This document shows positions 6,301 through 55,800 of a stretch of 64,000 nucleotides of DNA, piece by piece; position 1 is the first letter of the stretch; every line of letters begins with the position of its first letter. The DNA lies in assembly GCF_000003815.2 (NCBI RefSeq), contig NC_049991.1:17704580-17768579 (forward strand), written 5' to 3'. A program made the position numbers and the translations under genes. This DNA comes from Branchiostoma floridae. Taxonomy: Eukaryota > Chordata > Leptocardii > Amphioxiformes > Branchiostomatidae. The notes under the pieces are model-generated. The model did no database searches. It saw nothing but the letters and a program-made list of their open reading frames with translations, and was not told where the DNA came from.

Positions 6301-6926
6301 ACGAAATGGAGCTGTAATTTCTGTCGGCAACTTTTAATTAGTAAGAATAGAATGCAGTATTTTAGAAATCAGAGGTCCACGACCTCATACCTTTGCCAAA
6401 TGAGGGCGTATTTATAAGACGTATCATTGATAAATGTACATACAATCATCATTTGCATAAATGCATTAGTTAATGATCTACTCAAATAACACTGGTTTTT
6501 CGGATCATGAAAGCTGTATTGTAGCAAAAGGAGGATGCTTATTGTAGCATTTTAATCACTTATGCAAATGAGGATCTTTGCATGATTCAAAGTCCAAAGA
6601 GCTTCACCTTTATTTTAATCAACGATCACTTAAATTAATTGACGTTAAAGAACGTACCTTTCGTTGGTAAAACAAATGGCACATGATGCAAATAAGCTTC
6701 TGATTATTTAGCATGTATAGTTTTCCCTCACATTTATGAGGATCTGTCAAACCCTTTTTGGATTATTCTCTTTCAAAGTCGCAAGCAAAACAAGCAAAAT
6801 TGGCTCCAGCAGTTTAAAAAAAAAAGTTCTAACGTTAAGTGTAGGTAAAACAGTAATTTCTGTACCCTGAAATGGAAAAGTAAATGGTTAGAGAATTCAG
6901 GTGATAGGAAGCATGGTGGTGGGTTG
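3391..6926. other. intergenic, mostly unremarkable AT-rich DNA
   Basis: A degenerate retroelement-like tail rich in ATGAATAAA units lies near 3700-3750. A 19-bp direct repeat (CCTTCAGGAGGGTCAAATA) occurs at 5900-5918 and 5931-5949. A reverse AATAAA (TTTATT) at 6609-6614 could be the poly-A signal of the LRR gene. Otherwise I see no gene. Confidence 0.45.
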
Positions 6927-6944
6927 CTACGGTTTGTCGCCGGT

Positions 6945-8375
6945 TCCCTCTCCTGAAGAGATCTCCCATGGCCAGTAGGTGTTAGGTATTGTGAGGGGGA
7001 AAGACTCACCCTGTGGTGTATTACTGGGTCACTCACCAGGGATCGCCCATGGCCAGTAGGTGTTAGGTAGTGTGAGGGGGAAAGACTCACCCTGTGGTGT
7101 ATTACTGGGTCCCTCACCAGGGACCGCCCATGGCCAGTAGGTGTTTGGTAGTGTGAGGGGGAAAGACTCACCCTGTGGTGTATTACTGGGTCCCTCACCA
7201 GGGATCGCCCATGGCCAGTAGGTGTTAGGTAGTGTGAGTGGGAAAGACTCACCTTGTGGTGTATTACTGGGTCCCTCCCCAATCTCCCATGGCCAGTAGG
7301 TGTTAGGCAGTGTGGAAAGGGACGAGCGCCATGGTGTGTTACTAGGTCCCTCCCCAATCTCCCATGGCCAGTAGGTGTTAGGTGGTGTGACCAGGGGGAG
7401 GGACGCACGCCGTGGTGTGTTACGGGTTCCCTCCCCTGCAGATATCTCCCATGGCCAGTAGGTGTTAGGCAATGTGAGGGGGAGAGAGACACGTCGTGGT
7501 GTGTTACGAGCTCTCTCTCCTGTAGAGATCTCCCATGGCCAGTAGGTGTTAGGCAGTGTGGAAAGGGAGGAGCGCCGTGGTGTGTTACGCGCACCCTGCC
7601 CTGTCACCTCCCATGGCCAGTAGGTGTTAGGCAGTGTGGAAAGGGACGAGCGCCGTGGTGTGTTACTGGGTCCGTCCCCAATCTCCCATGGCCAGTAGGT
7701 GTTAGGCAGTGTGGCAAGGGACGAGCGCCGTGGTGTGTTACGGGTTCCCTCCCCTGCAGAGATCTCCCATGGCCAGTAGGTGTTAGGCAGTGTGGAAAGG
7801 GACGAGCGCCGTGGTGTGTTACTAGGTCCATCCCCAATCTCCCATGGCCAGTAGGTGTTAGGTGGTGTGACCAGGGGGAGGGACGCACGTCGTGGTGTGT
7901 TACGAGTTCTCTCTCCTGTAGAGATCTCCCATGGCCAGTAGGTGTTAGGCAGTGTGGAAAGGGACGAGCGCCGTGGTGTGTTTCTAGGTCCCTCCCCAAT
8001 CTCCCATGGCCAGTAGGTGTCAGGTGGTGTGACCAGGGGGAGAGAGACACGTCGTGGTGTGTTACGAGTTCTCTCTCCTGTAGAGATCTCCCATGGCCAG
8101 TAGGTGTTAGGCAGTGTGGAAAGGGACGAGCGCCGTGGTGTGTTACTGGGTCCGTCTCCAATCTCCCATGGCCAGTAAGTGTTAGGCAGTTTGGCAAGGG
8201 ACGAGCGCCGTGGTATGTTACGCGCACCCTGCCCTGTCATCTCCCATGGCCAGTACGTGTTGGGCAGTGTGACGAGGGGGAGGGACGCACGCCGTGGAGT
8301 GATACGGGTTCCATCTCCGGAGATCTCCCAAGGCCAGTAAGTGTTAGGCAGTGTGGCAAGGGACGAGCGCCGTGG
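6945..8375 (-). repeat. coding minisatellite, ~75-81-bp units (about 18 copies)
   Basis: The unit core on the + strand is CCCATGGCCAGTAGGTGTTAG, spaced by about 66-81 bp. All spacings are multiples of three, so the array is in frame inside the LRR gene and also leaves long artificial ORFs in other frames and on the other strand. Units alternate between a GGAAAGGGACGAGCGCC version and a GACCAGGGGGAGGGACGCA version, a higher-order pattern that indicates unequal exchange. The last four units (about 6960-7260) form a separate sub-family ending GGGGGAAAGACTCACC. Confidence 0.9.
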
Positions 8376-10580
8376 TATGTGATGCTCTGCAGCATCAGCA
8401 TAGAAAGGCATGGGCCCGCTCTCGTCATCCGGGATCTCGCTGTAGGTATGCCGAGGGGCCGACAGAGGGCGCTGTGCAGCGGTGTTGCGATCTGCAGTCT
8501 CCCAGGATATGCGCGGGAGAGCAGGCAGGGGGCGCTGTGCAGCTGCTATGCGATCTGGGATCAGACTGTAAGTGGGTTCAATGGACATGAGAACAGCCGG
8601 CAATGACCTGCAGGATGTCGCATCGTCTGGTGCGCCCTTGCGTGTGCATGATACTGCAGGGAGAGACGAAGACCGCACCAAGTCGGAGATGTCGTCATCT
8701 GGAATCTCCCAGTATGTGTGGGGCAGACCAGGCAAAGGCCTGTGGGCAGCAGCTATATCATCTGGGATCCCGCTGTAAGCAGGTTCGATGGAATGCAGAA
8801 CAGCGGGCAATGACCTACAGGAGGCTGCGTCATCCGACGCCATCTTGCTTGAGCATGCAGGGAGGGAAGCCGACCTCAGCAAGCCGGGGAAGGCAACGCC
8901 AGGTGGGATGGTCCAGACGTGCGCATCGTCGCTCTCATCCTCGGTGTTTAGCCCTGGTGAGCTTGACATCCATGCCAACACAGCAAGGGACGAAACGACC
9001 AGACTGAGCACAGCCGAGACGACGACTGGGATGACAACATGATCTGTTGCTGGAGGCATCTCTGATCCAGTTGTGGTACTCATCCGCAGTGTGGAGTTGT
9101 CTCCCGGTTCTGAGGATGTGTAATGTGTCAGTCTGCTGGACTCAGTATCTGTTCTGTAAGGGGTTGGTGTTGTGTGTGTGTGCCCCTGGACCTGTGGAGC
9201 GGTGAAGAACAACTCAGTGTGTTCATCTTTGGTGAGCAGAATGCAGGTGATGTTTTGTGTATTGTCGCGGAAGGTGTTTGTGGGGGTGGCATGCCTTTGG
9301 TTGTATCCAGGTTCATAAGTGGTGAGTGTGGTCGTGTCTTTTGTCTGAGAAAATGACATGGCAACACCTTCAAAGCTTGCATTGCCTTCGGTCATTGAAG
9401 CCAGTCGGAAGATTGAGCTTCCCACCGGACCCACTGTAATGCCGCTAGCGTATTCCCAAACCTCCATGCATTGCTCAAGTGTGTTGGGGACCAGTTTGTC
9501 AGCCTGAGAGCCGTCAGTAGCCAAGACAACTACGGGAGCCTGGATAGAAATCATTCTAAGAGATCTATCGAAAACTCCGCATGAATTGCCAGGGGTGACT
9601 CCCACCATGTTTAAAGGCACGTTATTTGATGAAGCAAACATCCACCCAAACGAGAAGCCATAAGCATTGTGCCTGACACAGAAGATGAGCTTGGGCACCC
9701 AAACGACCATTGTTACTGACCCTCTGTAAACATTGGTTACCTGATATAGGCTCCACATCATTCCATGAGGCCTGGCATCATGGACAGATGACAACACGTC
9801 ACTGCTGATGCTAAGCCTTGCCAGTGAACTCTGCCCCAGAAGCACCTCTCCATCCAAACATGACAGACCAGTACTGGTCAGGTCTAACAGGGTCAGCTGC
9901 AGGTGTTTGAATGACCCTGGAGATATGCTGTTGATTGCATTGGACCCCAGGAATAAGATCTTTATACCTTTCAGCCGAAAGAGCCAGGCAGGATCCACAA
10001 CTTGCAGCAGGTTGTTTTCCAGATCCAAGAGATACAGATGTGTCAGGCGCACGAATGCACCTGGCTCTATCTGCTTGATGTTGTTGTTGGACAATACCAG
10101 CTGAAAGAGCTTCTCCAAGCCAGTGGACCAGGCACGCTTCACGCTTGTCAATCTGTTAGAATCTAAGGACAGCTTGAAGAGAATGGAAAACCCAGCGAAG
10201 GTGTTGTTCTCCACATCGGTGATCTCTGCATCTATCAAAGCCAAACTGCGGACCACGGAGTGCTCGAGCGGTGCCAGGCTCTCAGCCGACAGGACATGGA
10301 ATGGGTATCCTCTTACTGCAACACCTTCCGCCTTGGCAAGAAAAGGGAAAGGCCCCCCTGAGGCGACACTCTCATTCTGGACCTTACACATGGCACATGC
10401 GTATTTCCAAGACACTGTAGTGGCCATCATTCCCGAATGTGCTTTGACAGGCACACACTCTTGCCATCCACCTGCCTTACAAGAAGGAAAACCCGGGCCA
10501 CTGGAAGCTGCACAGGCAGCTGGCAAGAGAATCAAGCACAACATGGCTGCGATCGGCTTCACACCACCGCTCACATACAT
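7029..10580 (-). CDS. leucine-rich-repeat receptor, single-pass, with tandem-repeat cytoplasmic tail (1183 aa, intronless)
   Basis: The ATG at 10578-10580 gives a signal peptide (hydrophobic core MLCLILLPAACA, aa 13-24; Met13 is an alternative start). A Cys-containing N-cap follows at aa 34-65, then about six LRRs at aa 105-260 (LFLGSNAINSI, LVLSNNNIKQI), a Cys-poor ectodomain to aa 450, a Thr-rich stalk, and a TM helix at aa 514-538. The 645-aa tail has RPLPxLP SH3-ligand motifs at aa 614 and 683, then 17 repeats of about 26 aa, each centred on P-N-T-Y-W-P-W. Thirteen repeats carry RR(S/A/V)SL, a basophilic (PKA-type) kinase consensus. The TGA at 7029-7031 lies inside a repeat; one more repeat stays open beyond it to a TAG at 6927-6929. 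The reading frame is uninterrupted and no intron is needed. It is probably a surface receptor or adhesion protein; ligand and pathway are not evident. The gene class is clear, orthology is not. Confidence 0.82.
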   Translation of the reverse strand: MYVSGGVKPIAAMLCLILLPAACAASSGPGFPSCKAGGWQECVPVKAHSGMMATTVSWKYACAMCKVQNESVASGGPFPFLAKAEGVAVRGYPFHVLSAESLAPLEHSVVRSLALIDAEITDVENNTFAGFSILFKLSLDSNRLTSVKRAWSTGLEKLFQLVLSNNNIKQIEPGAFVRLTHLYLLDLENNLLQVVDPAWLFRLKGIKILFLGSNAINSISPGSFKHLQLTLLDLTSTGLSCLDGEVLLGQSSLARLSISSDVLSSVHDARPHGMMWSLYQVTNVYRGSVTMVVWVPKLIFCVRHNAYGFSFGWMFASSNNVPLNMVGVTPGNSCGVFDRSLRMISIQAPVVVLATDGSQADKLVPNTLEQCMEVWEYASGITVGPVGSSIFRLASMTEGNASFEGVAMSFSQTKDTTTLTTYEPGYNQRHATPTNTFRDNTQNITCILLTKDEHTELFFTAPQVQGHTHTTPTPYRTDTESSRLTHYTSSEPGDNSTLRMSTTTGSEMPPATDHVVIPVVVSAVLSLVVSSLAVLAWMSSSPGLNTEDESDDAHVWTIPPGVAFPGLLRSASLPACSSKMASDDAASCRSLPAVLHSIEPAYSGIPDDIAAAHRPLPGLPHTYWEIPDDDISDLVRSSSLPAVSCTRKGAPDDATSCRSLPAVLMSIEPTYSLIPDRIAAAQRPLPALPRISWETADRNTAAQRPLSAPRHTYSEIPDDESGPMPFYADAAEHHIPRRSSLATLPNTYWPWEISGDGTRITPRRASLPLVTLPNTYWPWEMTGQGARNIPRRSSLAKLPNTYWPWEIGDGPSNTPRRSSLSTLPNTYWPWEISTGERTRNTPRRVSLPLVTPPDTYWPWEIGEGPRNTPRRSSLSTLPNTYWPWEISTGERTRNTPRRASLPLVTPPNTYWPWEIGDGPSNTPRRSSLSTLPNTYWPWEISAGEGTRNTPRRSSLATLPNTYWPWEIGDGPSNTPRRSSLSTLPNTYWPWEVTGQGARNTPRRSSLSTLPNTYWPWEISTGERARNTPRRVSLPLTLPNTYWPWEISAGEGTRNTPRRASLPLVTPPNTYWPWEIGEGPSNTPWRSSLSTLPNTYWPWEIGEGPSNTPQGESFPLTLPNTYWPWAIPGEGPSNTPQGESFPLTLPNTYWPWAVPGEGPSNTPQGESFPLTLPNTYWPWAIPGE

Positions 10581-12285
10581 TCCGTCTATCCGTATCGAAA
10601 CCTTTCAGCCCAAAAACTATTCGTCACTTACCTGCCGTTTATCTGCTTAGTCAGCAAATCTGCCAGCATCAGTGACGAGCTATCGATCAGACGAGCGCTT
10701 CTTTCCTGCGTTTTTACGATGATTCTCGGTACTAAACAGGCTTTTTCCACCGCCGGCTGCGGTGCGTCCGTACGTACACTATCTATTTCCCAGACTAATA
10801 AAATCTTATCCAGACTAATAAAATTTTATTATTACTATGTTTTATGCATATATAGTACTAGGAAGGATGCGATTGGCGTATTAGGGGTTGTTATTGAGTT
10901 GCGCAGAACCATGCTCCTTGCTGTACTTCATTAAATGTTATGTTTATTTTTTATGCATTTACGTCATTGGGAGGGAATTCGGAATACGATTGACGTATTA
11001 AGGGTTGTTCTTTAAGACGAGTTGCGCAGAATCATGCCTTCCGATATTCAGACTAATCTCTTGATGTAGCTTATGACTAGTCAAGTAAGAACTGTCCTTG
11101 AAATGTGTCCTTGATGGAACCATACGATTGTTACAGTACGTTTGTCTTTGTTTTGAGATTTAGGGTATATTTTCGGGAAGCGACAGGTTAATTTTTATAG
11201 ATGCAATAATTTTTGTTTAAATGTGATTTACGTTTTTTAAACATATGGGCTGACATATTCCTGACTATGAATGGTTGTCACATCAATGCTAATATGACAT
11301 TCGTTTAAATCTGTCATACAGTGCGGGAAAATTCAAACCCTGAGTAGCCGTCATTGATACTTCTTATGATAGATCACATTGCTTTATTATTGGGGATGAG
11401 TTTCACTTTAGAATGGAATGATCTAGATACGCTATTTTGCGTGATGAGCTATTCACGTTTCTAGAATCCAGTACAGCAGATTTCACGAAATTCGATGCTA
11501 CAGACAGATTTGTATATATCTTTAGGTGCCACAACTCCCATAATATAAAGATAGGCAAATATATAAAAGACTGATTAGTTATTAGAAAGAATACCGAAAC
11601 TCATGGTTAGCCTTACTCGATTTTTTTCAACGCTATATCAAAGACTTGTTTTAGCCCTTATTGTCATGTTGTTTAGGATGTTAAGTTTTCTTGTATACAT
11701 CTATTTTGTACTTTGTGTGATAGTCGTTGCCATACGTTGTACCATCTACAATAATTTGTCGTGCAATAAAGTTCTTTCTTTCTATATCTTGTTAAATGGC
11801 CATCACCTAGCTCGGTGCCTCACTAGACGAGTGAGGAAGCGGCGATCCTGATATGTCTCGTTGTCTGACATGTAACACGCAGAAATATTAATAATTCTAT
11901 TTACCGAACAATATATTTCAACAATATATATACATACGTAGTCTCATTGCAAGCATCGAAACCCTTCTTGTAGCGATTGCATTTTTTATTGAAAATCTCT
12001 CAAAATGTATGTTAAATCGTTTATAATCCATTTACATAGTAAATTGGCAATCGTAACGCTGGCAGTAAAGCTGGCAACTTATGATAACTTCATAACAAGA
12101 AATAATATGTACAATTCAGTTTTTAAAGCGGACTCAAAAATAACATTTCCGAATCTTATCATATTGATTTTTTACAACAAAAATGTCTGTCATGAACTGT
12201 CATGAGATATGTGCATTTGTTGAAGAAAGTAACTTTAGTTTGTCACTGATGACACGAGTCAAATCTATTGTGTGACTTCTTGCAA
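10581..12285. other. intergenic between LRR receptor and first TNF gene
   Basis: AT-rich. A LINE-3'-end-like stretch at about 11640-11780 ends in GTGCAATAAAGTT. Sequence around 11510-11560 resembles 3418-3470 (TATATCTTTAG then ACAACTC), a possible dispersed repeat. No gene is seen. Confidence 0.4.
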
Positions 12286-12292: not shown

Positions 12293-14846
12293 TCATATCA
12301 TGAAAGCACCAAAGAAACTTGAAGATTCCTCAAAAGAAATCATTTGCGCGTTAGAGACCGAAATCGAAACCTTGTCCCCCTTCTCTAGCCTGAAGACCCC
12401 GCCCTGAAACGACGTGTAAAGTCCAAACTCAGTTCTCTTAGACCAACACGTGCTTCTTGAACTTTTCATTATAAGCTGTGGTTCCGGATAAGAAGATTGT
12501 TTGAATGTGTAATGAATGAGCTGAAAAATGTTAGCATCCTTGTCTGAATGTTCTTCCGGGTTTTCATTTAGGAACCTGTAGGACAGTTGTGAGTAGATGT
12601 AGTACAGTCCATCGACGGGAATTATGAGGTTTCCTCCTCTGTACTTCATTCCGTTAGCCAGGGTGGCCAGGCCCTGTTCGCTCTCCCAGGACCGCAGTTT
12701 CACTTCTCCGTGGTGTTCTGTTTTGAAAAGAAAAGAAAAGAAAAGAAAAGAGAAGTTAGTGTAAGAAAAAAAACAGAAGAACAAGTGGCTTTCAAAATCG
12801 CTGTTGATCTTGTACAGGCCAAGCACCTTAAGGTTGCTGCTCCGATTGACAAGAAACAGTTAAAAAACGGTACAGCTTTATATAACTACTTTCTTAGCAG
12901 TTTTGCTATCTGGGAATGCCTATCCTGCTACGGTATAACATCAGTCATTTTTTGCCTATACAATATTTTCAATTGCACTGTTTGCTTTGAGCAAACATGT
13001 ACTACAGTAATCGTTCCTTAACAGTCATGCAATCGACCACCGTGATTATTTCAACGTTTCATACTTTGATGTTTCTTATGATACCTAACCTGCAGTAACA
13101 TTTGTCTTATACATACAATATTGTCAATTGCTCCATGTTCTTTAAGCAAGGATGCACTGAACTAATATTTCAGTCACTCTCCAAGCAGAGGTTCGGCTCC
13201 GGCTATTTTGAGTGTTTAGGCGTTTTCGCCGGACTTTCTATATTGTGCCGTTTTCTTCATGTCTGCCGGGCAATGAGCCAAACCTCAGCTTAGAGGGTAG
13301 AACAACACAACACGTGGGTCTTACTCCGCAAGTTCTGTCGCGGGTTTCCCGTCAGATGTGCCATGGGTTTCCTGGAGCCGGGGGACCAGCCGGTCTGGAT
13401 GGGCGGTCCGACCTGGGTGTGGTCGGCTGCGGCTTTCTGGTCTTCTTCTTGCTCCAAAAGCATTCTCACGGCCTGTAAGATGGAGGTGTTGGTTGATTTG
13501 CAATGATCACTCAAAGGCGATGATTACTTTTTCAGATCTCTTTCTAATCCTTGTAATTCAACTATAAGAGTGAAAATATCAATTTCTTATCATGAATGTC
13601 ATACATTTGCCTCAAGATCATTGAAGATTCACCGACTCAAATCAGTTAAAACTTTTTTTTACTCTTTTATTATAACACCCTGTGCATCTCACTTTTGTGA
13701 CAACTCGTTTCACAATTCAGTTGAATACTTTTGATTCTTCATTCAAATGTTCTTTCAACATCAACTAAGACATGGTAATCAAAAAGATTAAAGATTTTGT
13801 GAATTTTGTCAAACTGCCTATCAAACTGTTTGGAGACTGCGCTATGTTTGAGTGCCATAAACTCAACACAAGGCTTACGTAAGCGGACTTTGCTCTCCGT
13901 GAAAAAACAACTTGTCGACCGTTGCACCATCACATGACATTAGTGGGCAATAACCATTGTTTATCAACAGACTTAAAACATCAACTGAATTCTTCTGCAG
14001 AAATGAGTCACATTTTCCCTTTTGGATTGCTGACTGTATAATGTCCTTTCAAACCGTTGATTTCGTCTCGAATTCTGACAAGCAAACGTAGTACGTAGAC
14101 ATGAAATTATGAACTTTTGACCTTTGTGAAAGTGAAAGAGTTTTAAACTTGTTTTCGTGAAGATTTGACGCTTTATTTGTGACTAATTAAAAGATTTGAT
14201 GATTTCCATTTTCACCAAGACGAAAAGAACTGTAAATGCCACCCTACTCTTTATCTTGCTCACCTTGTAAACAAAACAGATCTAGACCAAGACTTTATTT
14301 ACAAATTGACCGGTACTTCCCGGCTCGTGAAAACAACTTTAAATTTTCCTCCCTACCAGACTCTACCGTATACCAGACTGACTACGCTGGCTAGTAGTAT
14401 TACAGGGAGAATAATTTGCCAGGGGAGTTTTGCTACCAGAGAAGTTGGCCGATCTCTTGAGGGGAAACATGAACCTTAGCGTAGACTGACTCCCCTGGCC
14501 AATTTCCCGACTTTTCCCCGGAATTCTACGATCCCCGCATCCCCATAGGAAGGTCAGATGGAGGCTACCCTACCTCATCCACAGTAGCAGTGATGTTCCA
14601 GCGGTCACTGCCGTGTCCTGGGAGGTCCAGCTTCTCGTAGGCGCTCCTTAGCTGGTCAATCTGCTGGCCGAAGTAGACCCACATCGTGGCCAGTCCGGCA
14701 AGCAGGCCCGCGCAGAAAAACGCCAAGACTGAGCACAACACCACGAGCGTACAGTGGCTGTTACAGGCTTTTCGCTCGTAGATGTCATCGGCTAAAGGAG
14801 CGGTGGAACACTCGCTGTCTTGACGCTTAGAACTGCGTGCTGCCAT
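12293..14846 (-). CDS. TNF-superfamily ligand A (TRAIL/RANKL-like), 3 exons, 281 aa
   Basis: Exons: 14846-14574 (phase 0), 13472-13325 (phase 1), 12717-12293. Donors are GTAGGG and GTAAGA; acceptors are TTACAG and AAACAG. This is a type II membrane protein: a short cytosolic N-terminus containing RQDSECSTAPL, a TM helix at about aa 30-58, a stalk, then a TNF homology domain starting at AHLTGNP. Landmarks include GLYYIYSQLSYR, CWSKRTEFGLY, FQGGVF and the terminal SSFFGAF. CWSK matches the TRAIL loop whose Cys binds zinc at the trimer axis. A second TNF gene lies head-to-tail upstream at 15731-19079 with the same N-terminal motif and the same predicted length, so this is a tandem duplicate. Gene A has no intron after SQLSYR, where gene B has one. 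The AATAAA at 12292-12287 directly follows the stop. A role as a trimeric cytokine acting on TNF receptors is inferred from the family. Confidence 0.85.
12721..12755 (-). repeat. (CTTTT)n microsatellite forming the acceptor polypyrimidine tract of TNF gene A
   Basis: Five to six AAAAG units on the + strand read as CTTTT repeats on the - strand and end 3-4 bases before the AAACAG acceptor of the last exon of gene A. Repeat-length changes here would alter the splice-site tract. Confidence 0.7.
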
Positions 14847-15730: not shown

Positions 15731-18700
15731 TCAATACAACATAAATGCACCGAAGAAGCTCGACGTTTCGTCAAAGCAGATGAGAGGGGCGTTCGACACT
15801 GAGACCCAGATCTTGTCCCCCTTCTGCAGCTGAAACACCCCGCCTTGAAACGACGTGTACAGCCCGAACTCCACTCTCTTGGACCAGCACGTGCTCTTCG
15901 CCGTCTTCATGATCTGCTTGGGTTCAGGGTAAGAGTTCCTCCTGTACGTGTAGTGGATGATCTGGAAGACTCTCTCTTCCTTGCCCGAATCTTCCGGTAG
16001 GTCGTTCCTAAACCTGTAGTAGGGGAGGGAGATATTGAAAGTTTACTGGTATTTGCAAGTTCATGACCTGTTTGGGTTTCAAGCAAGAGTTCCTTCTGTA
16101 CGTGTAGTGGATGATCTGGAAGACTCTCTCCTCCTTGCCCGAATCTTCCGGCAGGTCGTTCCTGAACCTGTAGTAGGGGAGGGAGATATTGAAAGTTTAT
16201 TTGCAAGTTCATTACATGGTTGGGTTCTGGGTAAGAGTTTCTCCTGTACGTGTAGTGGATGATCTGGAAGACTATCTCCTCCTTGCCCGAATCTTCAGGT
16301 AGGTCGTTCCTGAACCTGTAGTGGGAGGGGGTATCATTTACAACTTTTTGATTTATTTATTTGATCTATTTAACTTTTAAAACTTTTAAGAATAAGGATT
16401 CTACAATATGGAAAAGGTATATCTAAGCACAAAAATCACAAACGTAGGGCAATCATTGAACATGCATGACAGCATGTGAAACTTTGGAGACGTTTGAAAA
16501 GTCAATTTTTTGCTTTTAATTAGTTGATTTTTGATTTGTCCATCTTTGCAAAGGGAATTCTTTGAGAGGCTCTGGTAATCATTCTGCCTTCTTCTGACCT
16601 TAAATATTTTGCCCAGGGATGTCAGAGTACCGACTGTAGGGCATTTAATCCCCCCCCCCCTACCCCCACATACACACCTGTAGGGCAGATTGTAGGAGAC
16701 TAACAACAGAAATCACGCACAGGAGGCTGAAATGGCTTGGCCATGTCATGAGAATGGTTGACGACAGAATTAAAAGAAAAAATTGCCCTAGCTAACTTGC
16801 AGACTTGACGGTAAAAGAAAAAGGGAAGACCAAAAACCACATGGAGGAGAACAGTGTCAGATGACCCGGCGTCTATGTGTCTCTCCTGACAGTCAGTACA
16901 GTCTGAAGAACAGGACAGACCCAGATGGAAGAAAAGTGGCATTGCCTTATGTCTCACCAGGGACGAAGAGGATAAGTAAGTACCTGTAAGACAGCTGTGA
17001 GTAGACGTAGTACAGTCCGTCTGCAGGGATGACCAGGTTCCCCCGGTTGTACTCCATGCCGTTTGCTAAAGTCGCCAGGCCGTGCTCCGTCTCCCAGGTT
17101 TTGATCTTCATAACCTCGTTTTCTTCTCCTGTGGGACAGAAAATTGTGAAAAATGTTAGTGTGTGCTTTCATACGCCAGTATCAATGTGGGAAGAACCTT
17201 GATTCGTATACAAAGTCGAAACATATACATATACATGTACATGTACAATCTTTTGTATCTGTATCTGTATCGTCGTCGCCGTCTCTCTCTCTCACCCTCT
17301 CTCTATATATATATTGGCTTAAGTATCTATCTATCTATCTATATATGTAGAAACATTGGCTTAGTTATCTATATATCTATCTCTTGTGTCACCGGAAGGA
17401 TGACCTGAACTGAACTGAACTATCTCTACATGTTATATATGAATTAACCGATGTGAGCAACCTTTCATTTGACATCAAACAATTCGTCATACCTAAACTT
17501 TGTTTAAAACTTTTTGTTATAAGGTAGATCCGATAGATATCTATTTGAACTGTTTTCTACTGATCTTCTGGAATATGAAGATGCCGCTTCAGTTAATTGA
17601 CAATACTAATGATATGCACGTACGATTTGGATAGTGGTTGGGTTCGGGGTTCCCTGTAAGGTGAGCCATGGGCCTGTCCCGTCCTCTGGCCCAGGCGCTC
17701 GGCAAGGGCGGCCCGACCTCGACATGGTCCCGCTCAGCTAGGTACTTCTGTAGCGCCTGAGGAAGGATATGTTTAAAATAAGGAATTCAATGGTGATAAA
17801 TGCCAGGTAAGTGACCAGTGTGGCGTTTAATACTGTGGCGTAACTGGTAGAGCGTTCGGCTCGGAATCGAAAGGTGCCGAGTTCGATACCCACTATGCCC
17901 CGACGTTTTGCCCTTGGGAAAGGCACTTTACACGACTGACCCTAATTGTGCGCCAAAAATACACTACGGATTTGGTGCAGCCTTAACCAACTCAGCAGTC
18001 CGATGTGCAATGGTTCAGTGTGACAGGTCTTTTAATGTAATATAACCAGCTACTGCAGCGCCGCGTGCCGAAGGGCAATCTTACCGACTACTAAAAGTAT
18101 ATGGATAACATGCATTTTCTAATCCAAACTTTCGTGTAGTAACAAGTGTTGCGTTAACTTTGTTTTGGTGAACTTTCTTCAGTCTTATGTGAAAATTACA
18201 TTTTATATCACTCTTATTTCTTAAGCTGTTTTTGTAGAATCATGACGTTTCATGCCAATACATAACTTCACTTTAAACCAACTGCGCACGCCCAACTTTA
18301 ATTTGCACTATGTTGTGTCGAACAGTACTGCGTCATTGATGACAAAGAAAATTCCCCGCCAAAAGCAACCTTTGAAACGAACAAGTCTATCTTGTTATAA
18401 GTCCGTACGCAGCCTAAACACATATTTTGGGCTGACAAAAATAACAATGATCACTTTAACCTCCTTTTACTTCAAGAAACAAAACACATCTTCATACCAA
18501 CAAGAGATTTGTCTGGCTTGACCGATAAACTCAGAATTCAAGTAGGGTTCTATCAAAGCCGAAAAGCACCCAATTGTCATCAATGACGGAACTGCCGTGA
18601 TTTCGCTTGACAGCGCAAATAGAAATTGACTAAAATTCCAAAAGAACTTGTAGTTCAACGACGTTATCAAAATATTCCGTTCACAGCCTCCCTCGTGACC

Positions 18701-20252: not shown

Positions 20253-23200
20253 TCAATGTTTCTTTTTGGTTTTCTGGAACTTTTTAACTTTCTTCCTGAT
20301 GCCTGTGGCCTCCATTGTATCATCATCATCATCGGCTGCTGCTGACCGCTTCCCCCCCTTCTTCCCTCCCTGTTCCTTCATTTCCTGTAAGGAAAGAAGA
20401 TTCATCAGTACATTACATATATTATACATCAGTTTGAAAATGTTGACAAGCAAAATTATATGGCCATCCAATGACACTAGCTGTCTAGTCCTTCCATGAG
20501 ATAAAGAACGAAACTACCCCCAGACCGGTAATGGGTAAAAAACGGAAACTACATGCAAAGTTGGATACTGAATTGATAGTGGGTCTAGAAGGTCTTTATC
20601 ACATATAGCACTTGGGATTTTGAGATCAATTGAATATGAATCTGTATCATGCACAGTATAAGGTCCTAATATTCTTAAACTGACTATATACAAAGAAATG
20701 TACAATATTTCTGTGATTTTGTCATTTTTGTGGATAGATGCCTCCAGCAATACTGTCTGAGTTTGTCTATGTGATATTACTGCTGACAATCTAAATGATA
20801 TGAACAGAAATGAGATTATATGAAAAAAAAAAACTGTAGTTGCTGACCATCCTGGCGTATCTCTGCGCCTCCATCACTCTCTCGTTCATCACCATCACTT
20901 CTTCCTCTTCTGTCTTGTACAGAGGCAGCTTCTTACCGATCAGGTGTTCAATCCTCTGGTACAGCTCTACATCATATCTGCAGGTAACAGGAAAATAATA
21001 GAATAAAGATTAGTTTTTCTGAATCAAACTTCATCCTCTTCTGTTTTGTACAGAGGCAGCTTCTTCCCGATCAGGTGTTCAATCCTCTGGTACAGCTCTA
21101 CATCATATCTGCAGGTAACAGGAAAATAATAGAATAAAGATTAGTTTTTCTGAATCAAACTTCATCCTCTTCTGTTTTGTACAGAGGCAGCTTCTTCCCG
21201 ATCAGGTGTTCAATCCTCTGGTACAGCTCTACATCATATCTGCAGGTAACAGGGAAACAATAGAACATAGTTCAGTTTTGCTGAATCACAATTCTTTTTT
21301 CTCCTGTTTTGGATTGCAGCAGCTTCTTCCTGATCAGGTATTTAATCCTGTGGTACAGTTCTACATCATACCTACACATAGCAGGAAAACAACAGAACAA
21401 ATTTCAGTTTTGCTGAATCACAATTCTTCTTCTTCTGTTTTCTGTTGCAGCAACTTCTTCCTGATCAGGTGTTCAATCCTCTGGTACATCATAGCTCTAC
21501 ATCATACCTACAGAGACAACAGACAGGTTCTATTAGATTTGTGTTGACTTGTCATCAAATAATACTATGCCCTTTTTAACAAGGACCTTTGTCCTATCAT
21601 GATACGTCTTTGTGGGTTTATGGGAGCTGATATGACTGAATTGAATTACTGACCCCAAATGTCAGTCAGTGAATCTCAAGAAAAAAGAGCTTTATGATCC
21701 CATAAGACAAGTATAGGCAACTATCAGAGCCAGTTTAACTAAGCCTGGTGGCACCCAGGCTATAACAATTACAGTAGCATGGCAATGTACAGTAGTTATG
21801 GAAGTGAAAAGCATTTCTTACTGTGTGACAAAGGTGATGGCCTTCCCAGACCTCCCTGCTCTGGCTGTACGGCCCACTCTGTGGATGTAGTCCTGGAGGA
21901 AACAAAGTGTCACTAAGTTGATGAAGGTCAGACATCCAGAAAATTAATGCCCTGATCAAATACTGTAAATGCGTTTAAGTTTGCGTGGATTTAATTTTGA
22001 GGTAGAGGGAAAAAGGACTGTTCGCAGTGGTTTTAATTTCATGGTTGCACCATGCACTGTATGTCTCTGGCTGTGATGGAAATAAAACCACCGCGAACAG
22101 TCCTTTTCTGCATTTACAGTAGCAGTTACACGAGCAGATATGATTTTGGAGCACACTACAGAGTGTTAGTAGTACATTTACTACACTGAACAGATTGTCA
22201 CTACAAAGTGTTATTACACACCAAGAACTTAAGGTGTACATCTCTGTGTTGCCCAGAGACCATGCTGTTAAACTATTTAGTGGCATAGATTTAAACTCCA
22301 AGCAGATCCTACAATGGCATAAGATAATACCAAACTGGCCAAGGAGTGTAGTCAGCCTAGAGGTGTACATTTGCCATGTGGTAGCAAAACACACTCCCAG
22401 GCCAGCTACAGTCCTCTACTAGCTTTTGATACTATCTTATGCTACTGTAGGATCTGCTTGGAGATTAGCATAGATTCCCCAAAGTGACCATTATTTCATA
22501 GACTTCCATGAGGAATCTAAAACTATTGATACCTTTGAGTGAGTACTGAAATCGTGTGTAGCTTATTGCTCAGTGCGTAGCTTATTGTCAATTGATCAGC
22601 ATTTTCTCTATAGAGGCCACCTGTCTATAGTGGCCACATTTCTCCAGTCCCTTGAGTGGCAGCTTTGGACAGGTTTGACTGTACTAGTGTTAGCTATACA
22701 TGTTATGGTACCCTAAAGGATGTCATTACAGTGGTTACCTTGAATTTCAGAGGATTAAATTCTCCAAATCGACTATTATTCCAGAAAAATCTTAAACCGT
22801 TCATACCTTAGAGTGTGTAGGAATGTCAAAGTTGATGACCACGTCCACATGCGGGATGTCCAGCCCCCGACTGGCCACGTCCGTAGCGATCAGGATGGAC
22901 CTGCTCTTGGCCTTAAACTTGTGCAGGGCGCCGAGGCGGGAGTTCTGGAGAGTGGTGAAGATACAGATCAGCATCTAATACCAGCTCAAAAAAGACCAAG
23001 GAATAGCCATTCCTTCAAGTACCAAAGTTGTATTTTCCCAGAACTATTGTAGAGTGGAATATGTTATCAACCATTTTCTATGGATAGTTTTTAAAGAACT
23101 CTTGCAGATAGAGGTGCTAAGGTTAGGTTGACAGGTCGTTCAGTGTAATGTAACCAGCTGCTGCCACGCCGCGTGCCTACGAAGCTGGTGTGTTACACCG

Positions 23201-37297: not shown

Positions 37298-38510
37298 AGT
37301 TCTCCTGAGGTAAATATGTACCACGCCCGTCCAGTAGTGTTGCGTTTGCCGTAGCCCGTCTCGATAGCTGTTTTACCACATAACCACACCTCACCACATC
37401 GGACCACTAGCTACCACGCCCCGTACAGGAGTGTTGCGTTTGCCGTAGCCCGTCTCAGTACTGTTTTACAGCAGAACCACACCTTACCACCGCGGACCAC
37501 TAGCTACCACGCCCCGCACAGGAGTGTTGCGTTTGCCGTGGCCCACCTCAGTCCTGTTTTACAGCAGAACCACACCTTACCACCGCGGACCACTAGCCCC
37601 CACGCCCCGCACAGGAGTGTTGCGTTTGCCGTAGCCCGTCTCGGTCTTGTTTTACGAACAACCACACCTTACACAGCGGACACTAGCTACCAGCCCCGTA
37701 GAGGAGTGTTGCGTTTGCCGTAGCCCGTCTCAATCCTGTCTTACCGTATAACCACACCTTACCACAGCGGACCACTAGCTACCACGCCCGTCCAGGAGTG
37801 TTGCATTTGGCGTAGCCCGTCTCGATCCTGTTTTACCACATAACCACACCTTACCACATCGGACCACTAGCTACCGCGCCCCGTACAGGAGTGTTGCGTT
37901 TGCCGTAGCCCGTCTCAGTACTGTTTTACAGCAGAACCACACCTTACCACCGCGGACCACTAGCCCCCACGCCCCGTAAGAAGTGTTGCGTTTGCCGTAG
38001 CCCGTCTCAGTACTGTTTTACCGAACAACCACACTTTACCACCGCGGACCACTAGCCCCCACGCCCCGCACAGGAGTGTTGCGTTTGCCGTAGCCCGTCT
38101 CGGTCTTGTTTTACCGAACAACCACACCTTACCACAGCGGACCACTAGCTACCACGCCCCGTACAGGAGTGTTGCGTTTGCCGTAGCCCGTCTCAGTACT
38201 GTTTTACAGCAGAACCACACCTTACCACCGCGGACCACTAGCCCCCACGCCCCGCACAGGAGTGTTGCGTTTGCCGTAGCCCGTCTCGGTCTTGTTTTAC
38301 CGAACAACCACACCTTACCACAGCGGACCACTAGCTACCATGCCCCGTAGAGGAGTGTTGCATTTGCCGTAGCCCGTCTCGGTCTTGTTTTACCGAACAA
38401 CCACGCCTTACCACAGAGGACCACTAGTTATCACGCCCCGTAGAGGAGTGATGCGTTTGCCCTAGCTCGTCTCAATCCTGTTTCACGGCAGAATCACACC
38501 TTACTACGTC
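37298..38510. repeat. 93-94-bp tandem satellite, about 13 units
   Basis: The core GTGTTGCGTTTGCCGTAGCC recurs at 37337, 37431, 37524 and onward to about 38448. It alternates with a variable half (TTTTACAGCAGAACCACACC versus TTTTACCGAACAACCACACC), indicating two unit types. Its left edge is the gap, so the true array is probably longer. Confidence 0.93.
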
Positions 38511-52800: not shown

Positions 52801-55800
52801 TGACAGTACATGTTTTTATGAACGCACAGACATTAATGAATGCATTGGAAATCCATGCCAACATGGACTATGCGCGAACCAAGATGGTGGCTACAAATGT
52901 TGTCAGCTAAATGTGGATCTCAATAAAGTCAAAGTCAAAGTCAACGTCAAATGTACCTGCTCGAGTGGATGGACTGGACAAAACTGTCAGCAAGGTGTAT
53001 TCTATGTTTGAACGTCACTAAGTTCTTTTATATGTTTAAGCAGTTGCCTAGTTCTGTTCACACTTCGAACTCCTCTTCTTCCAATCATGCTTTAATTTAG
53101 CTTGATTTCGTGACAAGATGTTTTTATCTTTATCACACAGACATCAATGAATGCTTTGGAAGGCCATGTCTACATGGACGATGTGTGAACCAAGATGGCG
53201 GATACAAATGTATCTGCGACTCTGGATGGACTGGAAAGAACTGTCAGCAAGGTGAGTTTTTTTCTGTAAGGTGACTTAAAGTTAGGAATTTTCACATGTG
53301 ACGTCGTCAATGATAAAACATGAACTGTCAGCAAGGTGAGTTCTGAGCTGGTTGAATGGAAGTTTTTGAACATCTTCTTTTTAGTTTTTCCATCCTCTTT
53401 TTCCGGTCTTTAAACATTCTTTATCAGTCATGTGTTGGTTAAGGTAATTTGATGACAGTACATGTTGCCATGAGCGCACAGACATCAATAAATGGATTGA
53501 TAATCCATGTCTACATGGACGCTGTGAGAACAAAGATGGTGGTTGTAAATGTACCTGCTCACCTGGATCGACTAGACAATACTGTTGGAAAATGTGTTTT
53601 ATTTCTTATGGTAACAAAAATTCTTATGTAAATATACCTCTTGCATATCTTCTTTTGGAGTGATCATGATATCTTCTTTCATAACGTACTGCGATCAGGA
53701 TAGAAACTATATCCCATTCTATTACCTAACAGGCATGCCTAAATGATGTTACTGGATAAAACGTTGAAAGGAATTATCAAAACTGCCGATATGTATATCC
53801 TGGTGAAATAGACATAGTAAAAATGTGTTACTTTGCCACGTTAGATCGGATATGTCTGCTTCCAGGAGTCAAGTTTCGGAAAAAATGAGGTCTTTTATAT
53901 TCACTGTATCATCGCCTCTTTCAGAGTTAGCCCGACAATGTCAGACTGGATGGAACGAATACAACAACCACTGCTACAAGCTGATGACGGAAAGTGTCAG
54001 CGGGGATTCAGCGAACCAAAAGTGCCGAGGAATGGGTGCAAATCTTGCTTCTGTCAGGGACAGCCAGGAGAACACATTCATCGCAAATACCATAAAAGGT
54101 AAATAAAGTCCTAGGCCTGTAGCCTTAAGAGTGAGGACATACTGGTAGTGGGTTGTTATCCACTGTGCATATAGGGCACGGTATAGGAAGGCGAAACCAT
54201 CCTTCTTTTAACACTTTCTTCTTTCCTCCCCAACAAAAGTCAAGTAACAATTTCACACCTGAAGAAATATGAGAATAATGCATCACTGTTATTTCATTTC
54301 CACAGAATGGTGACCATTTGGCAACTAATTTGACAAACAAATCATTGAAAAAATCATTGAACACCACAATCATTTAGAAATTATTCCTTATATAGATCAT
54401 TAAAAGATGACTAAAATACATTGAGGGTCTTGAGCTCTGAGGGCTGAGATATGTCAAAAGTTTTGTGCCCTGCACGTTTTTTTCGTAGGTCCTCAGTCTC
54501 AGTAGGCAGTAGTTTTGTAAAGTTATGTAAATAAAGGCGATTGAAGTTTACATCAGTGTATTTTTGGTTTTGGTCTGGCCTTAAAATTTTAAGTGTGGAC
54601 TATCCGGAGTCTTTTTGCCTAGTTTACTTTTTAATATCAGTATTATTTCCATACTTTCTTGCAGAATGATTATCATTATTTTAATTTTATCATTATTTTA
54701 ATAAACTCGTACTTACCTTCCACCTACTCCAATCTTTTAGGTATGTTATATATGGTATAGATCAATTTCTTCCATATCTGTAGTGGCATGACATAATTTT
54801 ATAGTTATTTATTAGTTTTATTGTATCATATTGTAATGTTTCTTGTGATGAATTCTTTGTATGTTCGTCCGCATTTTTGTAGGCTCTGCCGCTACCAGCT
54901 CAAAGCTGTCCAGGCAGACCCATATAATGACTTGTCAATAAAGTCAAAGTCAATCCCTAAAGCCTGCCAACAATGAGCGTACAGAAGTTTGTTGACTTAT
55001 GATTGAAAGTTTGGGCGTTCAAATCTTATGCTTTTTGGCGAGAACCTTTTACCACTGATTACAAAAGTGGTGCTTTACTCCTTAAAAGGCCAGTTACTGG
55101 GTATGCAAACAAACATTAAGCATGTGATTATGACTTGCAGGTGCAGAAGGCGACATGGTCTGGATTGGACTGAAACGCAAAAAGAAAGGATTCGAGTGGA
55201 CGGATGGATCACAATTTTCTTACACTAACTGGGCAGAGGGTCAGCCGGATAACGGCAACGGCGGCTGGAATCGCAGGGAAGGATGCGTCATCATGTACAA
55301 TAAGGTGTGAATCCTTGTTTCCTTTTTGTTGCATTTAAAATGTATGTTTTAGTTGCAGTTTCTATCTCTGTGTCTCTGCCTTGTGAATCTGCATAACTTT
55401 TACTTAAACTTAGACTTAGACTTAGACTTAGACTTAGACTTAGACTTAGACTTAGACTTAGACTTAGACTTAGACTTAGACTTAGGTTTCTGGAAGCAGC
55501 ATAACTTCGAGCCAATTGTTTTACTTTCACTGTCCTGTGCTAACTCAGGTGACCTTAATACGACAGGTGATTCCATAAGACGGTAATATTGCTAGCCACT
55601 CACACCGGGAAGGGCTCCTACTCCTTTCAATAAGTGTGGTGGGTCCCTTCACGTGTTTAAGGTGTGGCTATTCTCATACACTCAATTCATCTCCAGCTGA
55701 GTGAAGTGAGGAAAGTTCTGTTATTGCCTTTCCTAATAGCACACGACCGGTTGCATAGCAACGAAGTCGAACCCAGAACCTGTCATTTTGGGCCCAACAG

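Follow-up and report, generated by a model that had tools for sequence, protein, structure and literature searches.

The window, by which we mean the whole 64-kb stretch of lancelet DNA analysed here, carries on its minus strand a receptor-like gene laid out as a single open frame (7026–10580), with the first ATG at 10580 and a TGA stop at 7026–7028; the frame itself is open for 1191 codons (7029–10604). The predicted protein begins with a probable signal peptide (MYVSGGVKPIAAMLCLILLPAACAASS; 10500–10580, minus strand), recognized from hydropathy and with an estimated end point, and continues into leucine-rich repeats (9786–10250, minus strand) that match Pfam LRR_8 at E 1.4e-28. The best solved-structure match of the repeats is PDB 7wrq, the acid labile subunit (E 1.2e-27, residues 112–266). 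A transmembrane helix is placed at 8967–9041 (minus strand), where the 19-residue hydropathy profile has its highest peak in the protein (2.54). The LRR receptor named in the preliminary description is thus supported, with the repeats assigned by Pfam and PDB and the helix and leader by hydropathy only; repeats and helix recur in paralogues. Behind the helix extends a tail of 645 aa with a net charge of −6, containing 98 Pro, 71 Ser, 67 Thr, 38 Trp and 22 Tyr. The leader together with the single helix suggests a cytoplasmic location of this tail, and its composition suggests disorder. The gene resembles one for an LRR membrane protein of type I whose tail is a Ser/Tyr repeat. An AATAAA poly(A)-signal-like site lies about 410 bp past the stop (6609–6614, minus strand); sites of this type occur about once per kb in the window. 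Upstream, a perfect splice donor (CAGGTAAGT) is found at window position 10632 (minus strand), about 50 bp before the receptor ATG. No clear intron fits there, and the site perhaps reflects an intron in the 5′ UTR or chance.

The tail shows two tiers. The proximal tier is a roughly 64-residue block present in two copies, following the pattern RSxSLP, CRSLPAVLxSIEPxYSxIPD, RPLPxLP. Block 1 (8691–8882, minus strand) reads RSASLP ... CRSLPAVL ... YSGIPD ... RPLPGLPHTYWEIPDD, and block 2 (8487–8681, minus strand) is identical to it in 44 of 63 aligned residues, with a pN/pS of 0.36; RSxSLP accordingly occurs twice in the tail. A third element, comprising RPLSAPRHTYSEIPDD and PMPFYAD within approximate limits (8400–8486, minus strand), repeats the RPL element with HTYSEIPDD and adjoins the array. 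The RPLPxLP motif resembles class I SH3 ligands. The YxEI motif resembles the YEEI SH2 ligand described as a tool of Src-kinase work in the consulted part of PMC4140816. Judged by sequence only, the tail therefore combines RxxPxxP with a nearby YxEI-type tyrosine, as in SH3/SH2 docking tails. Among 12 tails that could be parsed (the window's included; six further tails did not fit the parsing pattern), RPLPxxP is present in 10 and Y.EI in 11, and RPLP..P followed by a nearby Y..(I/F/V) in eight. The ITIM form (I/V/L)xYxx(L/V), as printed in the consulted part of PMC8211107, was not found in the translated window tail, where P, H, N or D stands two positions before every tyrosine and the array reads YWPW.

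The distal tier is the array (7047–8378, minus strand). Parsing on TYWPW resolves it into 17 in-frame units on the one minus-strand open frame, each ending in an exact TYWPW, and 13 of them carry RRxSL; the preliminary description had given the same number of units, the same block in every unit and the same 13 RR(S/A/V)SL sites. Unit 1 is partial (17 aa) and units 2–17 measure 25–29 aa. The 13 sites (8 RRSSL, 3 RRASL and 2 RRVSL) occupy units 1–13 and span 7398–8372 (minus strand), their lower ends lying at 8358, 8280, 8196, 8121, 8040, 7959 and 7878 for sites 1–7 and at 7797, 7716, 7641, 7563, 7482 and 7398 for sites 8–13. Unit 14 has WRSSL in the same place and units 15–17 have QGESF; the extended form RRxSLP is found in five of the 17. 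The position earlier assigned to the array stands, but its lower limit of 7029 is too high, for the repeat DNA extends about 63–87 bp further. An 18th unit (6966–7046, minus strand) continues in frame and is broken by the stop codon, which is a single base away from its counterpart in unit 17. Tandem Repeats Finder delimits the array at 6942–8380, in rows with periods of 81, 162, 237 and 480 bp, and a 15-bp core (≤2 mismatches) occurs 18 times as against 0.07 expected from shuffles. Variants in units 1–17 are distributed 16:8:27 over the three codon positions of 26 codons (permutation P 0.0017; P 0.004 for the same test on variable columns), and the pN/pS of the array is 0.37 in the reading frame, the other five frames giving higher values of 0.47 to 2.76. 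Within units 1–13 each of the R, R, S and L codons shows silent variation (CGG/CGA, CGC/CGT, TCC/TCT, CTT/CTC) with zero replacements, whereas the x position holds S, A or V. The array peptides had no match among viral contigs. Whether the proximal RPLP/TYxEI block gave rise to the array units was also considered; the evidence is suggestive only and is kept out of the main claim. Local alignments of array against block gave shuffle P values of 0.001–0.004 in four of nine pairs and 0.118–0.466 in the other five, and at the DNA level there were only 11-base matches (E 0.44).

The search for further proteins with repeated RRxSL plus TYWPW, proposed at the outset, was made in the window's own genome assembly (513 Mb, 431 contigs) and was productive. 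An 80-aa piece of the array used as query returned 234 matches (150 of 411 candidates scored), which group into at least 55 array loci, the window's included, spread over 16 contigs; 39 of these loci have an open frame of at least 800 aa, some of the 39 frames containing a stop. A query built from the proximal block (CRSLPAVL, TYSEIPD, RPLPxLP) returned 164 matches (150 of 192 candidates scored) at 89 loci or more. Both locus counts are minimum figures, and broken copies are among the loci counted. A proximal block lies within 3 kb and on the same strand at 53 of the 55 array loci, and among the matches listed there are 36 block loci without an array. Sixteen distinct paralogue frames of at least 800 aa, obtained after overlapping copies had been removed by hand, have RSxSLP in 13 cases, RPLPxxP in 15 and the YxEIPD-type motif Y..I(P/S/Q)(D/E) in all 16. 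The ectodomains of 15 paralogues are 34–65% identical to the window's. Two of the block matches fall in frames of 5559 aa (C262:33664) and 2296 aa (C12:12155300), which are either fusions or N runs read as open. A stretch of linker some 110 aa long, marked by an RTAL pattern, lies between the PMPFY element or proximal block and the array in eight of the 22 frames examined, some of which are overlapping copies (L014, L017, L019, L021, L022, L024, L025 and L026); it was looked for in the window gene and not found.

Twenty genomic stretches, representing 20 genes, supplied 159 complete paralogue units besides those of the window, counted in any frame and including a few beyond the receptor's stop. 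Each paralogue has between 4 and 14 complete units. The family unit of about 28 aa has the consensus EIPGEGTRNTPRRASLPLVTLPNTYWPW, taken from the per-gene consensus rows, in which RRASL is the commonest form. Units are slightly more alike within a gene (0.75) than between genes (0.67) and hence not fully independent. RRxS is present in 105 of the 159 units, RRxS followed by a hydrophobic residue in 104, the looser RxxS-hydrophobic in 125 and RRxSxP in 87. TYWPW is exact in 139 of 159, a proportion that overstates its conservation because the units were detected through TYWPW (≤1 mismatch). Anchoring in the reverse direction, on 125 distinct RRxS-hydrophobic paralogue sites, recovered TYWPW with up to two mismatches in 115 and exactly in 99; of the other 10 sites, seven are truncated where the frame ends and three have no TYWPW. 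Relatives that lose RRxSL yet keep the rest of the repeat, which the preliminary description had considered as evidence against its proposal, do exist: 54 of the 159 units are without RRxS, and three genes (L020, L024, L026) together have 11 RGESL units, with RGESLP standing among RRxSLP units. This objection applies in part. Because RRxS is kept in only 105 of the 159 units, many of the serine sites are dispensable. All 11 RGES copies share identical codons, which suggests a recent sub-array. The array is out of one frame with the receptor in six of the 20 paralogues, and several arrays continue past a stop; either the distal units are dispensable or some family members are decaying. A blastn comparison of the 3′ flank of the window array with the 20 paralogue stretches found nothing at E 0.001.

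Constraint was measured on 175 units from 21 genes, namely the 159 units of the 20 paralogues and 16 of the window. The R, R, S and L positions have a pN/pS of 0.28 (gene bootstrap 0.21–0.38), a value free of the TYWPW-detection bias, compared with 1.22 (0.73–3.09) for the x of RRxSL and 1.24 (1.02–1.55) for the linker; the linker and x both stayed above the RRSL value in all 1000 gene bootstraps. Leaving the window out changes little (RRSL 0.29, linker 1.30). The P after RRxSL has 0.50 and LP 0.28. In the second motif, T, Y and P of TYWPW have 0.07, which detection biases low, and the I that follows has 0.12, and the three intervening columns have 0.69. Two motifs of the unit, RRxSL(P) and LPNTYWPWEI, are thus maintained by selection, whereas x and the linker drift. 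Such a pattern is the one expected of docking or modification motifs, and it lends support to the earlier suggestion of a functional polyvalent RRxSL array. That suggestion needs amending in that TYWPWEI looks like the stronger element of the two. It also dealt with a single gene and made no mention of the proximal RPLPxLP, TYxEIPD and RSxSLP blocks.

Based on this evidence, we put at about an even chance the reading of the tail as a disordered polyvalent docking strip, in which every unit would offer a kinase site and a second patch and the number of units would tune avidity. The window gene is one member of a large lancelet LRR receptor family, encoded in a single long open frame and equipped with a two-tier tail of a proximal block (SH3-ligand-like RPLPxLP, SH2-ligand-like TY(S/W)EIPD) followed by the tandem array. 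Upon engagement of the LRR ectodomain, the proximal block could recruit Src-family or Grb2-like proteins. Each array unit would present a putative serine site for a basophilic, PKA-type kinase; the sequence form RRx(S/T)-hydrophobic occurs in 13 of the 17 window units and 104 of the 159 paralogue units. Once phosphorylated, RRxSL might recruit readers of the 14-3-3 type, while the Trp/Tyr/Pro patch TYWPWEI may bind a second, constant partner. With P at +2, RRxSL approaches the 14-3-3 mode I form R-S/aromatic-x-pS-x-P (RSxSLP twice and RRxSLP in five of 17 units in the window; RRxSxP in 87 of the 159 paralogue units), although the basic residue before pS, which belongs to the definition printed in the consulted part of PMC9523730, is absent here. 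Minisatellite slippage would alter the number of units and hence the avidity, and the conserved RRxSL could serve something other than a kinase. A bolder extension, tentative and on balance doubtful, is that lancelets evolved a private family-wide code: scores of dispersed receptors with divergent ectodomains, all carrying the same polyvalent strip at their ends, would share one dedicated reader of LPNTYWPWEI, gated by phosphorylation of the adjacent RRxSL, and the number of units would act as a gain control open to evolution.

The alternative that fares best takes TYWPWEI for the sole working element and RRxSL for a mere helper, such as part of a basic-aromatic strip at the inner membrane, with no kinase involved. 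TYWPW is indeed the most constrained motif and outlives RRxSL in window units 14–17 and in the RGESL units elsewhere, and Arg together with Trp/Tyr is a plausible composition for membrane contact. But the conservation of TYWPW is inflated by detection and the net charge of the tail is negative, which sits poorly with a basic strip. Moreover, analysed per column and with two neighbouring C15 genes taken as one, the serine and leucine of RRxSL are as constrained as the arginines, with x free; a kinase-type site therefore fits better than mere charge, and we regard the helper reading as unlikely, though worth keeping in mind.

Quite unlikely, in our judgement, is a second alternative that concerns the end of the gene and holds the last units to be non-coding. 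Seven 5′ splice-donor-like sites lie in units 15–18 (7009–7253, minus strand), and the best of them, AAG|GTGAGT at 7253 in unit 15, is a candidate exon end; joined to an exon at 6866, it would yield 14 whole units and a short different end of 10 new residues, for a protein of 1119 aa in total. The donor is one of nine minus-strand sites so strong in the 64 kb, a strong acceptor is found at 6867 (with a chance of about 0.05 over that stretch) with the AATAAA at 6609 beyond it, none of the 159 paralogue units contains GGTGAGT, and a splice here would explain the loss of RR in units 15–18. Against this, codon shuffles produce a donor as strong as that at 7253 0.125 times by chance, and the perfect donor before the ATG has no clear intron to go with it. 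In five paralogues, donor-like sites scoring at least 10 (three of them 12.4) lie in the last 350 residues of array frames in which coding continues, which shows that such sites arise inside arrays. As the frames of paralogues, too, frequently terminate at stop codons inside the array or shortly beyond it, the TGA is retained as the likelier gene end. The array end had at first been read as intronic from the loss of RR in units 15–18 and the strong donors, a reading that the paralogues weakened. The 13 RRxSL sites are unaffected by either reading of the gene end. Finally, that a coding minisatellite was spread and homogenised by slippage and conversion with little function, its constraint being a relic of recent ancestry, is improbable: the 4 to 14 units per paralogue, the higher-order periods, the arrays past stops in several genes and the six of 20 arrays off the receptor frame agree with it, but ancestry alone leaves a low RRSL value beside a free x and linker in the same units unexplained, the four RRSL codons of window units 1–13 vary silently and never by replacement, and neutral spread does not easily account for such a pattern.

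The docking strip that we favour has partial counterparts among known systems, multisite disordered tails and coding VNTRs being already known kinds. Kemptide-type PKA substrates have the RRASL core in a single synthetic site; the lancelet array shares RRASL and adds to it the P at +2 and the TYWPWEI patch. The CFTR R domain, which is the best working analogy for the mechanism, gates a channel and is not known to be a tandem repeat or to contain TYWPW. It is similar in that a membrane protein here, too, has a disordered segment on the cytoplasmic side in which PKA consensus sites are numerous, and according to the consulted part of PMC8240754 some of its phosphosites bind 14-3-3, which aids forward trafficking and surface delivery. 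For copy-number variation, an analogy may be drawn to the exon 3 VNTR of the dopamine D4 receptor, likewise a coding minisatellite of variable copy number in an intracellular receptor part, with an SH3 partner of the receptor reported in the consulted part of PMC10454781; that repeat is a proline-rich one of 16 aa in one GPCR gene, in contrast to a Ser/Trp motif at 55 or more lancelet loci. The nearest lancelet protein we found in print is BbLcLRR of Branchiostoma belcheri, a transmembrane LRR receptor whose tail tyrosines in HDYSEV and DDYATV are phosphorylated by Lck, which was found with an Lck homologue and for which gut expression is reported (PMC8211107, consulted in part). LRR ectodomain, single TM and cytoplasmic tyrosines are common to both proteins, and HDYSEV resembles the HTYSEIPDD of the window. 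BbLcLRR differs in its length of 699 aa, its predicted WSC domain and its three tyrosine sites called ITIM or ITIM-like, and the parts of PMC8211107 consulted describe no repeat array. TYWPW and the overlapping strings YWPWE, TYWPWE and PNTYW were not found in the literature searched, and the titles and abstract openings of the papers listed for amphioxus LRRs and minisatellites mention no such family. As far as these searches show, no family has been described before in which at least 55 receptor loci have one selected two-motif array in common.

The importance of such a family lies in many receptors with different outsides having one selected, repeated motif inside, which predicts a common intracellular reader and with it a signalling route in a basal chordate. 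The differences in unit number between paralogues make a role of multivalency directly testable. The case is also an example of how a minisatellite in coding sequence can turn into a docking array under selection.

Several further features of the window may be recorded. Two TNF-superfamily domains lie on the minus strand at 12296–12859 and 15731–16042 (Pfam TNF, E 2.6e-34 and 1.4e-18); positions 15906–16329 hold a tandem duplication of 154 bp. A small plus-strand open frame (1995–2438), for which no Pfam match above cut-off was obtained, has a Cys-rich start, a Thr-rich stalk, a hydrophobic stretch and a short multi-tyrosine tail. Three other repeat arrays are present: a 131-bp tandem repeat at 20897–21488 (4.5 copies, 90% matches), a 93-bp tandem repeat at 37319–38504 (12.8 copies) that is partly open on the plus strand and adjoins an N run, and an almost perfect ACTTAG hexamer array of 14 copies at 55402–55485.
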